Translations under genes and position numbers: made by a program
Shown: positions 11,563 through 22,588 of the stretch, in pieces
How positions within the stretch are numbered: position 1 is the stretch's first letter
Layout of the letters: each line of letters begins with the position of its first letter
Notes under the pieces: model-generated
The model's input: only the letters and a program-made list of their open reading frames with translations
The model's database searches: none
What the model was told of the DNA's origin: nothing
DNA from: Candidatus Neomarinimicrobiota bacterium
GTDB taxonomy: Bacteria > Fidelibacterota > UBA2242 > B5-G15
Length of the DNA stretch: 24,614 bases
Direction: 5' to 3'
NCBI GenBank assembly: GCA_017656425.1
Contig: JACDNV010000025.1
Coordinates: 1-24,614 of the forward strand

Positions 11563-12915
11563 ATGATTGGCAATCAATTTTATTCAACCCCTGAAGATTT
11601 CATGAATTATGTTATTGCTAAAAATCCGGGTGAGAGTGAATTTCACCAAGCAGTTAGAGAATTTGTATTATCAGTGTGGGATTTTATTTTAGAGAATCCT
11701 ATTTATATTGAGAATAAGATTCTTGAGAGAATAGTTGAGCCAGAAAGGGTAATTATTTTTCGTGTTCCGTGGGTAGATGATAATGGTGAAATACAAGTAA
11801 ATAGGGGTTTTAGAGTGGAATTTAATTCTGCATTGGGTCCTTATAAAGGTGGATTGAGGTTCCACCCATCAGTGAATCTTAGTATATTAAAGTTTCTAGG
11901 ATTTGAGCAGATTTTTAAGAATTCCCTGACTGGGTTGCCGATGGGTGGGGGAAAAGGTGGTTCGGATTTTAATCCCAAGGGTAAATCTGACATGGAGATA
12001 ATGAGGTTTTGTCAGTCTTTCATGACGGAACTTTACAGACATATTGGAGAAGACACCGATGTGCCAGCTGGAGATATAGGTGTCGGTGCTAGAGAAATTG
12101 GTTATATGTTTGGTATATATAAAAAGTTAAAAAATGAATTTACTTGTGTGTTTACTGGTAAAGGTCTGGAATGGGGTGGCAGCATTCTTCGTCCAGAGGC
12201 AACAGGATATGGTGTAGTATATTTTGCTGAAGCTATGCTTAATGAAGTAGGTGACTCTATTGAAGGAAAAACTGTGGCTGTTAGTGGTTTTGGTAATGTT
12301 GCGTGGGGTATTGTGAAAAAGGTAAATGAATTAGGTGGTAAAGTCGTTACACTTTCTGGTCCTGATGGATATATATATGACCCCGATGGTGTGAATGGTG
12401 AAAAAGTTGATTTAATGCTTGAGTTACGTGCATCAAATCAGGATATTATCCGACCGTATGCTGAAAAATTTGGTGTAGAATTTTTCTCTGGTCGTAAACC
12501 TTGGGAACGGAAGGTTGATATTGCTTTTCCATGTGCTATACAGAATGAATTGGATGCTGATGATGCTCAACGTCTCGTCGAAAATAGTACCATAGCAGTT
12601 GTCGAAGGTGCTAATATGCCCTGTACTATTGATGCGATTGATATTTTTCAGAAAGCAAAGATACTTTACGCTCCTGGAAAAGCTGCAAATGCAGGGGGTG
12701 TGGCAGTTTCAGGTCTTGAAATGGCTCAAAATAGCATGAGATTAAGATGGTCTAGTGAAGAGGTAGATACCTATTTAAAGTCGATTATGAAAAATATTCA
12801 TGATACTTGCGTGAAGTATGGAAAAAAAGGTGACTATGTGGATTATGTAAGAGGTGCTAATATAGGCGGATTTATAAAAGTGGCTGATGCAATGATAGAT
12901 CAGGGGGTAATCTGA
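11563..12915 (+). CDS. gdh: Glutamate dehydrogenase, NAD-type coenzyme signature
   Basis: A 450-residue hexameric (class I) glutamate dehydrogenase interconverting glutamate and 2-oxoglutarate plus ammonia. Substrate and catalytic residues are in place: K95 in GPYKGGLRFHPS, K131 in LPMGGGKGGSDFNP, D171 in PAGDIGVGAREIG. The Rossmann loop reads SGFGNVAWG (F243), and the end of the second strand reads LSGPDGYIYDPDG (P267, D268). These match F238, P262 and D263 of the NAD-specific Clostridium symbiosum enzyme, so NAD and a catabolic direction are inferred. The start ATG follows GGAGGA closely. It diverges from the transhydrogenase-like operon and has a sigma-54-like promoter. A close paralogue with different coenzyme residues lies 1.1 kb downstream. 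Confidence 0.95.
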   Translation: MIGNQFYSTPEDFMNYVIAKNPGESEFHQAVREFVLSVWDFILENPIYIENKILERIVEPERVIIFRVPWVDDNGEIQVNRGFRVEFNSALGPYKGGLRFHPSVNLSILKFLGFEQIFKNSLTGLPMGGGKGGSDFNPKGKSDMEIMRFCQSFMTELYRHIGEDTDVPAGDIGVGAREIGYMFGIYKKLKNEFTCVFTGKGLEWGGSILRPEATGYGVVYFAEAMLNEVGDSIEGKTVAVSGFGNVAWGIVKKVNELGGKVVTLSGPDGYIYDPDGVNGEKVDLMLELRASNQDIIRPYAEKFGVEFFSGRKPWERKVDIAFPCAIQNELDADDAQRLVENSTIAVVEGANMPCTIDAIDIFQKAKILYAPGKAANAGGVAVSGLEMAQNSMRLRWSSEEVDTYLKSIMKNIHDTCVKYGKKGDYVDYVRGANIGGFIKVADAMIDQGVI

Positions 12916-13997: not shown

Positions 13998-15347
13998 ATG
14001 TACGGAAAATATTATTCATCACCTGATGATTTCATGAGTTATGTGATTGCAAAAAATCCTGGAGAGAGTGAGTTTCACCAGGCAGTTAGAGAATTTATTA
14101 ATTCAATATGGGATTTTTTAGTAGATAATCCTATATATATTGAGAATAAAATATTGGAGAGGATTATAGAACCTGAAAGAATAATAATATTCAGGGTTCC
14201 ATGGGTTGATGACAGAGGGAATATTAATGTAAATAGAGGGTTTAGAGTCCAGTTTAATTCGGCATTGGGACCATATAAGGGAGGTTTAAGATTTCACCCT
14301 TCAGTGAATTTGAGCATAATGAAATTTTTGGGATTTGAACAAATTTTTAAAAATTCCTTGACCGGGCTTCTATTGGGTGGGGGAAAAGGTGGTTCTGATT
14401 TCAACCCCAAGGCTAAATCTGATATGGAAGTAATGAAGTTTTGCCAATCCTTCATGAGGGAATTGTATAGATACATAGGTCCTGATACAGATGTTCCAGC
14501 TGGAGATATTGGTGTTGGTGGCAGAGAAATTGGATATTTGTTTGGAGAATATAAGAAGTTAAAGAATGAATTTTCTGGATCGTTAACTGGCAAGGGAATA
14601 AACTGGGGTGGTAGTTATATCAGACCAGAAGCGACTGGGTATGGCGCTATCTATTTTGCAGAAGAAATGTTAAAAACTGTTGGAGAAAGCATAAAGGGTA
14701 AGACAGTTGCGATTTCAGGTAGCGGGAATGTTGCACAATATGCAGCCAAAAAAGTTTTAGAAGTAGGAGGAAAAGTTGTAACACTTTCAGACTCTAATGG
14801 AACAATCTATGATCCGGATGGAATTGATGAAGATAAATTAAGTTTTGTATTTTATCTTAAGAATGTTAGAAGAGGAAGAATAAGGGAGTACGCTGAGAAG
14901 TATAAAGTACAATATTGGGAGAATAAAAAGCCCTGGAAAGTAAAATGTGATATTGCCATTCCATGTGCTACTCAAAATGAGATTAATGGAGATGATGCAA
15001 GAACATTAATAAAAAACGGATGTTTTTGTGTTGTTGAGGGAGCCAATATGCCTTCTACATTGGAAGCAATTGATGAGTTTCAGCAGGCAAAGGTACTATT
15101 CGCTCCTGCAAAAGCCGCAAATGCAGGTGGTGTGGCAGTTTCAGGATTGGAAATGACCCAAAATAGTATAAGATTAACATGGACAAAAGAAGAGGTTGAT
15201 AATAAGCTGAGAGATATTATGAAAAATATACACGCTACGTGCGTAAAGTATGGAAAAAATGGTGAAACTGTTGACTATATAAGAGGAGCAAATATAGCTG
15301 GATTTATTAAAGTGGCTGACGCAATGATAGATCAAGGGATTGTTTAA
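13998..15347 (+). CDS. gdhA: Glutamate dehydrogenase, NADP-type coenzyme signature
   Basis: A 449-residue class I glutamate dehydrogenase, highly similar throughout to the enzyme at 11563-12915. Core residues are kept: K94 in GPYKGGLRFHPS, K130 in GGGKGGSDFNP, D170 in PAGDIGVGGREIG. The coenzyme site differs: the Rossmann loop is SGSGNVAQY (S242 for F243) and the second strand ends LSDSNGTIYDPDG (S266, N267 for P267, D268). Serines at these positions are typical of NADP-dependent enzymes, so a biosynthetic or NADPH-linked role is inferred. LTGLLLGGGKGG replaces the usual LPMGGGKGG just before the catalytic lysine. The start ATG has a strong GAGGAGG site. No sigma-54-like promoter was found upstream, suggesting regulation separate from its paralogue. 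Confidence 0.95.
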   Translation: MYGKYYSSPDDFMSYVIAKNPGESEFHQAVREFINSIWDFLVDNPIYIENKILERIIEPERIIIFRVPWVDDRGNINVNRGFRVQFNSALGPYKGGLRFHPSVNLSIMKFLGFEQIFKNSLTGLLLGGGKGGSDFNPKAKSDMEVMKFCQSFMRELYRYIGPDTDVPAGDIGVGGREIGYLFGEYKKLKNEFSGSLTGKGINWGGSYIRPEATGYGAIYFAEEMLKTVGESIKGKTVAISGSGNVAQYAAKKVLEVGGKVVTLSDSNGTIYDPDGIDEDKLSFVFYLKNVRRGRIREYAEKYKVQYWENKKPWKVKCDIAIPCATQNEINGDDARTLIKNGCFCVVEGANMPSTLEAIDEFQQAKVLFAPAKAANAGGVAVSGLEMTQNSIRLTWTKEEVDNKLRDIMKNIHATCVKYGKNGETVDYIRGANIAGFIKVADAMIDQGIV

Positions 15348-20859: not shown

Positions 20860-21452
20860 CTTTACTTTTATTATAATTAGCACAGTCATTCCCAAGGGTA
20901 ATTTAACCCCTGAGATTATAGCTACGATTAAATATGTATCTGATCCACAGATTTCGCCTGATTCTAATAATATAGCTTTTGTAGATACGGAGATTGACAT
21001 GAATAGTTCAAAGAATTATAGTAGTTCCAATATATGGATTGTTCCGACAGATGGAAGCGAGAAACCACGAAAGTATACTTTTTCAGATAAGGATGAGAAA
21101 ATGCCTCGCTGGTTTCCTGATGGAAAATATCTGGTTTTCTTTCAAATCATGATGATGGGGATACATATCAGATTTACATAATGAGAACTGATGGTGGAGA
21201 AGCTTACAAATTGACGAATCATAGTGGTGGAGTAGTTAATTACAAGTGGGGGAAAAATTCTAATACTATATTTTTCGTTGCGATCGATTCGCTTACAAAG
21301 TTTGAAAAGGAAAGAAAGGAGAAAAAAGATGATGAGATAATACTGGATTATAACTATAAATCCTGTAGACTATATGAGATTGATATACAGTCAAGAGAGA
21401 TTAAATTATTAACCGAAGATAAACAAAATGTTAACGATTTTGGTTGGGAGGC
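20860..21452 (+). pseudogene. 5' remnant of an S9-family (prolyl-oligopeptidase-like) peptidase
   Basis: The text NLTPEIIATIKYVSDPQISP (from 20900), then DSNNIAFVDTEID, NIWIVPTDGSEKPRKYTFSD and MPRWFPDGKYLVFF is the start of the beta-propeller of S9 peptidases and acylaminoacyl peptidases. A frameshift near 21138-21145 moves the reading to SNHDDGDTYQIYIMRTDGGE, then AYKLTNHSGGVVNYKWGKNS, ending at NVNDFGW where homology stops. The catalytic alpha/beta-hydrolase half is absent: the degenerate insertion sequence begins there. The upstream signal-peptide region is also scrambled. The surviving part is about 190 codons of a protein that is usually 600-700 residues long. Confidence 0.7.
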
Positions 21453-21535
21453 TCAGTGATATGGTGGTACAGACCATAGACAGGATTAAGTGAGGGGGTT
21501 ATAGAATTTTTGCCGAATAATTTGTCGAGGATTAT

Positions 21536-21557
21536 TCGTAGAATCCCTGTTCGTGAG
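21536..21557. repeat. Double-hairpin mini-repeat, copy A
   Basis: TCGTAGAATCCC followed by TGTTCGTGAG. The most diverged of the four copies. With the preceding T, the first hairpin is TTC-GTA-GAA. Removing 22 nt joins transposase residues PP to IILDKLF in frame. Confidence 0.7.
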
Positions 21558-21783
21558 TGGAGGCATGAATGCGATACTTGGGGATATTTTATAATCTTTC
21601 AGGATATTTACCGGGGTTTTGAATTTTTTATATGAGTTTTCCCCCAGGGAATTGAAATAGAATTGATAAAATGAAGCTTTATTAAGGAAATCTTTTATTG
21701 AGCTGAATGATTCTATGCAGTGGAATTCGTCTTCGATTAATCTATGAGAGGATTCTACATCGGCATTAGCATTGGGGTAATGT

Positions 21784-21805
21784 GTCCGTAGAATCCCTAA
21801 TCGGG
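21784..21805. repeat. Double-hairpin mini-repeat, copy B
   Basis: CCGTAGAATCCC followed by TAATCGGGAG. Same orientation as copies A, C and D. It sits between the transposase segments KYIP and HYPNANADVES; removing 22 nt restores the frame and the usual family spacing. Confidence 0.85.
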
Positions 21806-21951
21806 AGTGGTATATATTTCACCTTAGCATTCCAATTCTTTTCGACATATTTTTTATATCCTCTGTTGTGATGTATTCTTATCCCACTAAACTCAGAGCC
21901 GTTATCAACTTGAATTGTTATTTTTTCTGGATCAATTCCATGCTTGGATAT

Positions 21952-21973
21952 CCGTAGGATCCCTAATCGGGAG
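21952..21973. repeat. Double-hairpin mini-repeat, copy C
   Basis: CCGTAGGATCCC followed by TAATCGGGAG. With the preceding T, hairpins are TCC-GTA-GGA and TCCC-TAATC-GGGA. It splits KLLFEH from SKHGIDPEKI in the transposase; removing 22 nt rejoins them in frame. Confidence 0.85.
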
Positions 21974-22243
21974 ATGCTCAAACAATAATTTCACAGAGAT
22001 TATTGTCGATGTTACACTTTTCTCATATGTATAGAAATAAAAGAGTGTTCCAGAGCGTACATCCCTTGCTGTGATTTGATATCTTGGTAGTCTGTATTTG
22101 CAGTAGTATTTAAAAAACTCTGGTATATCATCAAGATATTTTACATCCATCTGTATCACCTCAAAAGGTTTTAATCAATCACTCCCTTCTGAAATCGTAT
22201 AATATTATCTTTGCTTTTAGTTTTTTATTTGCTATGATACTAT

Positions 22244-22265
22244 CCGTAGGATCTCTAATCGGGAT
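22244..22265. repeat. Double-hairpin mini-repeat, copy D
   Basis: CCGTAGGATCTC followed by TAATCGGGAT. It lies just behind the likely transposase start codon (ATG 22272). Removing 22 nt places that ATG in frame with SIIANKKLKAK. Confidence 0.8.
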
Positions 22266-22315
22266 AGGTCATGTTTTTTCTCCTTATCTTTGATTCCTTT
22301 TCTAAATATCTCAAA

Positions 22316-22343
22316 GAGCATAGCCTGTCCACGGGCTATGCTC
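22316..22343. repeat. Perfect 10-bp stem-loop near the IS right end
   Basis: GAGCATAGCC (22316-22325) and GGCTATGCTC (22334-22343) form a strong hairpin with an 8-nt loop, just upstream of the transposase start on the minus strand. There is no proper U-tract on either strand. Possible roles are a weak terminator or a structure in the IS leader that blocks read-through translation. Confidence 0.6.
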
Positions 22344-22397
22344 TCATCATTCATTACACTTAATTTAATCAATTCTACCGTACCACTATATGCATGA

Positions 22398-22588
22398 ACT
22401 TTCCCGTAAAGCAGTTATAAAAATCTTGATTTTTAGATAATGGATTAATATCTTAGAAAAACAGGGTTTTTCGCATTTAATAGTTCAATCTAGAGGATTG
22501 TGGCGCGTGATTTTTCATAAAGTAAAAAGGGAAATAGGAAAGGATGAAATTGATAACAGGTTAGCTAAAATTAACTGACGTTAAATTT
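22398..22588 (+). pseudogene. Possible C-terminal remnant of a SPOR-like domain gene
   Basis: Between the IS and the next ORF, plus-strand codons from 22441 to TGA 22576-22578 read WINILEKQGFSHLIVQSRGL, then WRVIFHKVKREIGKDEIDNR, then LAKIN. The pattern (long helix, GF-h-IVQS-G-WRV, helix) resembles the end of a SPOR peptidoglycan-binding domain. A TAA at 22438-22440 cuts it off from the upstream DNA in the same frame. Short and divergent, so the call is tentative. Confidence 0.3.

Follow-up and report, generated by a model that had tools for sequence, protein, structure and literature searches.

Why does a single transposase gene hold four copies of a 22-nt repeat, each of which breaks its reading frame? 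The gene lies in the window, a stretch of 24,614 nt (G000:C25:1-24614) from a 2.8-Mb draft genome; the closest named relative of one long window protein is from a Neomarinimicrobiota MAG (68% identity). Elsewhere in the window, two similar glutamate-dehydrogenase-like genes adjoin (11563-12915 and 13998-15347).

The interrupted transposase gene

The gene belongs to a decayed DDE-transposase insertion sequence, here called IS-A. The features of this region are:

21446-22406, minus strand: IS-A, bounded by imperfect terminal repeats (GGGAGGCTCAGTGATATGGTGGTAC at 21446-21470 and GTACCACTATATGCATGAACTTTCCCG at 22380-22406)
21535-21556, plus strand: element A, 22 nt, diverged (TTC-GTA-GAA + TCCC..GTGA); empty site in G001 L066/L067
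21785-21806, plus strand: element B, 22 nt; removal restores the frame
21951-21972, plus strand: element C, 22 nt; removal restores the frame
22243-22264, plus strand: element D, 22 nt, directly after the transposase start codon; empty site in G001 L065
24539-24559, plus strand: fifth copy, 21-nt subtype TCCGAAGGATCTCTTTTGAGA, near the contig end

All four repeats that the first-pass annotation had reported are present in the same orientation, within 1-2 nt of where it had placed them, and all are inside the minus-strand transposase. At every one of the four sites the frame is restored when exactly 22 nt are taken out, as it had claimed. Element A has the sequence TTCGTAGAATCCCTGTTCGTGA, and its site is also occupied in the IS-A copies on contigs C13, C8, C15, C14 and C1. 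Compared to the C13 copy, the IS-A of the window has lost the N-terminal HTH part and the E site. The fifth copy sits in DNA that is common to a C14 repeat.

A family of abutting hairpins

A lack of further genomic copies had been named beforehand as an outcome that would speak against insertion. With up to 3 mismatches, the 22-mer occurs 37 times in its own genome and the reversed control not once, an excess well above what chance would give. Structural patterns for 20-mers (TTCGAAGAATCCCTTCGGGA) and 21-mers (TCCGAAGGATCTCTTTTGAGA) gave 48 and 25 matches and none in the controls; two looser patterns had 4 control matches each. Rarer variants, such as CTCGTAGAG and GTCTAAGAC, have different first stems. 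The family includes 20- and 21-nt subtypes besides the 22-mer, which amends the earlier description, and amounts to at least 80 copies of 20, 21 or 22 nt, counted across overlapping pattern searches and imperfect copies. They are spread over about 20 contigs with different flanks and are found in intergenic DNA, in host genes and, for the most part, in transposase genes, of which five unrelated types carry them.

The common architecture is xyC-NNN-Gy'x' followed by TCYC-N3..5-GRGA, that is, two abutting hairpins, one with a 3-bp stem and a 3-nt loop and one with a 4-bp stem and a loop of 3-5 nt. In 18 variants, 98.4% of cells are paired in the structure (((...)))((((.....)))), and 15 cells have changed on both sides of a stem, a value equalled by 0 of 500 shuffles. 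This covariation agrees with the two-hairpin fold described before, in which some variants had been seen to keep their pairing. The folding energy of isolated elements is weak and no better than that of shuffles; the pairing therefore rests on covariation and not on stability. Rfam returned nothing relevant, and a Pfam search with short pieces of the window gave no match.

Several loci deserve separate mention. Six elements in both orientations are found within 600 nt of intergenic DNA, apparently outside any IS (L034, G000:C18:33088-33683). A 21-mer (L072, G000:C10:62732-62752) separates the ATG of a membrane gene from a Shine-Dalgarno-like AAGGAG and at the same time falls within the last codons of the preceding gene. 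A repeat with TCCCAATGGGACTCCTCG (7 copies) was rejected as a further subtype, being part of a longer dispersed repeat that has no first hairpin. A separate longer dispersed repeat with the core GATTGCTTCGTCGTCCCAATGGGACTCCTCGCAA is present in at least 7 copies (L113-L117, on G000 contigs C4, C11, C14 and C31).

Boundaries, target and polymorphism

Alignment with related IS copies, as suggested in the first-pass annotation, revealed empty sites that define inserts of 20, 21 or 22 nt. In G001, a genome of the same family, site A is empty in L066 and L067 and site D in L065 (22 nt), and L068 carries a 20-nt version at site D. In the own genome, the copies of IS-B (IS256-type) on C2, C19, C3, C15 and C23 differ by clean insertions of 20, 21 and 22 nt, and the IS-C copies on C15, C32 and C12 have different sets of 21-mers. 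A target duplication was found at none of the empty and filled sites compared, neither in the IS copies of G001 nor in IS-B and IS-C of the own genome. Of the range of 22-25 nt given earlier, the empty sites in G001 bear out 22 nt, and 25 nt is without support.

The insertion sites share the consensus TR^NARG on the plus strand, which is CYTN^YA on the other strand; it was derived from 42 sites judged independent and compiled by hand, with site lists made partly by eye. A is present at +2 in 33/42 (p 3e-9) and G at +4 likewise in 33/42 (p 1e-18). The flanks noted before on the minus strand, CCW before and AYA after, were a partial view of this target.

The IS-B copies C2 and C19 each have a 22-mer whose loop contains a nested 20-mer. 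At GTTA^CAGG a 21-mer is present in C2 and C15 and absent from their sisters C3 and C23. Apart from this element, C15 and C23 agree at every position of about 270 flanking nt, a polymorphism that needs clean loss, repeated gain at the same nucleotide or a very short conversion.

Intact relatives of the IS-A transposase in other genomes have 371-379 aa and no inserts; intact relatives carrying the same inserts had been held to be an argument against insertion. Sites A-D are common to many IS-A copies of the own genome, and where a site is shared, its element copies resemble each other closely. The earlier view has to be amended here: some copies do not stem from an insertion event of their own, IS copies share sites by inheritance or conversion, and many elements owe their spread to the IS or to conversion and not to their own movement. 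The IS copies are mosaics; in C25/C14 and C12/C32 the tracts that surround elements are of this kind. Recombination between elements has deleted DNA in C8, C6 and C14. Two IS-C copies, L074 (C15) and L078 (C32), share a tract of several hundred nt at 100% identity, and on both sides of it identity is about 80-87%, the pattern expected of gene conversion.

Are the elements translated, skipped or only relics?

Elements in host genes are informative as to how they are read. The frame of an S46 peptidase (719 aa), which matches dipeptidyl aminopeptidase BII along its full length, is open only if the 20-mer, plus one base, is translated as FEESLRE. A response regulator and a membrane gene contain in-frame 21-mers without stops, and in an M24 peptidase the 22-mer is located in the last codons. 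Since elements in host genes are in frame and the S46 frame needs its element, they would be read through and not skipped.

This bears directly on the view that the hairpins are bypass elements, skipped in translation or cut from the RNA, and that the transposases are functional, like genes with byps in Magnusiomyces. What keeps it alive is that several transposases are intact apart from the frame-breaking elements: once these are removed, the transposases of IS-B (C15, C23), IS-C (C15) and ISL3 are otherwise intact across hundreds of codons. Moreover, IS-A copies that share inserts have a slight excess of synonymous change (33/87 versus 28% expected, p 0.03), and the compared stretch has no stops (p 0.09) and no indels. 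The similarity of element copies at shared sites would also fit, and two abutting hairpins would draw the flanks together. A dN/dS of ~0.3, calculated without correction for mutation bias, was not retained, as the signal is weak once the observed transition bias is included, and such weak constraint could predate the insertions because the copies are mosaics. The requirement of the S46 peptidase for translation of its 20-mer and the placement of host-gene elements, in frame or at the very end, argue against skipping, as do the IS-B copies C2, C19 and C3, which carry one further frameshift. In addition, take-off and landing codons match at only 14/42 positions, and no codon is fully matched. 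A general translational bypass is thus disfavoured; skipping is possible but not favoured, and we consider bypass an unlikely explanation of the family. If true, bacterial ISs with multiple inserts would stay active and the elements would be a bacterial counterpart of the mitochondrial byps.

The occupation of sites A-D in many IS-A copies and the mosaic tracts flanking elements would also be compatible with relics that were formerly mobile and now spread only by IS copying and gene conversion between IS copies. C15 and C23, whose flanks are identical while only C15 has the element, do not fit this picture. Neither do the nested 20-mer and the recurrence of one target at independent positions in intergenic DNA, in host genes and in transposases of five unrelated types; we consider this reading unlikely. 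Even less credible, to the point of being negligible, is an artefact of assembly or sequencing. The draft comprises 50 contigs and several copies are near contig ends, but the elements occur on about 20 contigs with differing flanks, precise frames and compensatory stems, and similar in-frame units are found in a transposase of G018, which is from the same order. Because several IS copies are cut off by the end of a contig, the draft may lack intact element-free copies.

A model for the spread of the elements

Taken together, the repeats are probably mobile elements of a new family, ultra-small at 20, 21 or 22 nt, non-autonomous and built on hairpins. A small, precisely inserting element had been preferred over bypass from the outset, and copy number, empty sites, target, nesting and polymorphism support this choice. 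The proposal builds on the family, its structure, the exact boundaries, the target and the polymorphism, and mobility is deduced from the comparison of sites and not from movement seen directly; the enzymatic mover is what we infer.

According to this model, the elements would insert precisely and without duplication at the short, strand-specific target TR^NARG and would have spread in this way to at least 80 places in the genome. Most of those that persist would be in intergenic DNA and IS transposases, where loss of the frame is cheap, and host genes would tolerate them only where the frame stays open. IS copies would inherit elements, swap them by recombination and be able to drop them cleanly.

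The lack of a target duplication, the short target in the left flank and the hairpin ends would fit a mover that acts in trans and recognise the folded single strand, like the Y1/HUH transposases of the IS200/IS605 type. Absence of duplication and a short target beside one end, as in IS200/IS605-type (Y1 HUH) elements, are both found here. A mobilising enzyme was not found in the draft genome, which has one Y1_Tnp match, an atypical Y1 domain within a restriction-modification ORF, on a contig that holds none of the located elements. At this locus (L079, G000:C5, about 24.9-28.2 kb) the restriction-modification ORF is type IIG-like and encloses, in the same frame, a Y1 transposase domain that is RAYT-like; the domain is bordered by the peptides TGIPAC and TGISAC, which resemble translated repeats.

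A 20-nt unit of two hairpins would be close to the lower size limit of mobile DNA and among the shortest in bacteria, and would illustrate that a moving enzyme can make do with very little sequence. Which enzyme moves small dispersed repeats and double-hairpin elements is a long-standing question, and the present family would be a compact system in which to address it. A further question is what keeps transposase genes otherwise intact when several inserts break their frame.

Comparison with known systems

By comparison with described systems, the elements appear to work most like cyanobacterial small dispersed repeats (SDRs) and fungal mitochondrial hairpin elements. SDRs (Elhai et al. 2008, cited in PMC3116915 and PMC2884548) are reportedly about 20 nt long. 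They resemble the present elements in size (~20 nt), in having many dispersed copies and in being non-coding and probably mobile; SDRs are defined as dispersed repeats of ~20 nt that some homologous sites have and others lack, and such repeats are also found here. The present family differs from them in its double hairpin, its TR^NARG target, its location mostly in transposase genes and its host phylum, Neomarinimicrobiota. Palindromic elements of Rickettsia are about 100-150 nt long, far longer than 20-22 nt. They share in-frame insertion within functional genes with the present elements and are CGTC-tagged (PMC3733652).

The double-hairpin elements and GC clusters of mitochondria likewise consist only of hairpins, merge or nest, are polymorphic and are exchanged by recombination (PMC4478555). 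Yeast and fungal GC clusters are about 40 nt long and flanked by AG/ACT duplications (PMC4478555), whereas the elements described here have 20-22 nt, no duplication and a bacterial chromosome as their home. The byps in mitochondria of Magnusiomyces capitatus are also short, frame-breaking inserts in otherwise intact genes, many per genome (PMC5009743). In contrast to these, take-off and landing codons do not match here and one host gene needs its element translated; some mitochondrial byps also have no perfect match of take-off and landing (PMC5009743).

REPs and REPINs are short palindromic repeats too, with many copies per genome and some in frame inside genes. A REP is a single hairpin whose stem has 5-13 bp and which ends in an unpaired GTAG or CGTC, and it is mobilised by a RAYT (PMC3116915, PMC3733652); the tag that defines REPs and REPINs is an unpaired tetranucleotide, GTAG/GTRG (or CGTC), at one end (PMC3733652). 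Assignment to this class was rejected: the ends of the present elements are paired (TYC...GRGA), with GTA, GAA or TAA in the loop instead, and no RAYT gene is flanked by elements, the lone Y1_Tnp match being the one in the restriction-modification ORF. An origin as MITE or other IS derivative, which would bring a target duplication and the inverted repeats from the ends of its parent IS, was rejected as well, as the elements have 20-22 nt in total and their empty sites show no duplication.

Occurrence in other genomes

The exact 22-mer has no match in IMG/VR or the GTDB r220 species genomes, and with up to 2 mismatches it was found, among 100 related genomes, in its own genome only. The generic double-hairpin pattern matches 47 times in the own genome compared to 0-3 times per relative. 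Matches in G010 and G016 were discarded as members; they lie in a larger intergenic repeat. An IS transposase of G018, from the same order, has two in-frame double-hairpin-like units (L127, G018:C69:5988 and 6119). These two look like true members, and given these units such elements may extend beyond this genome.
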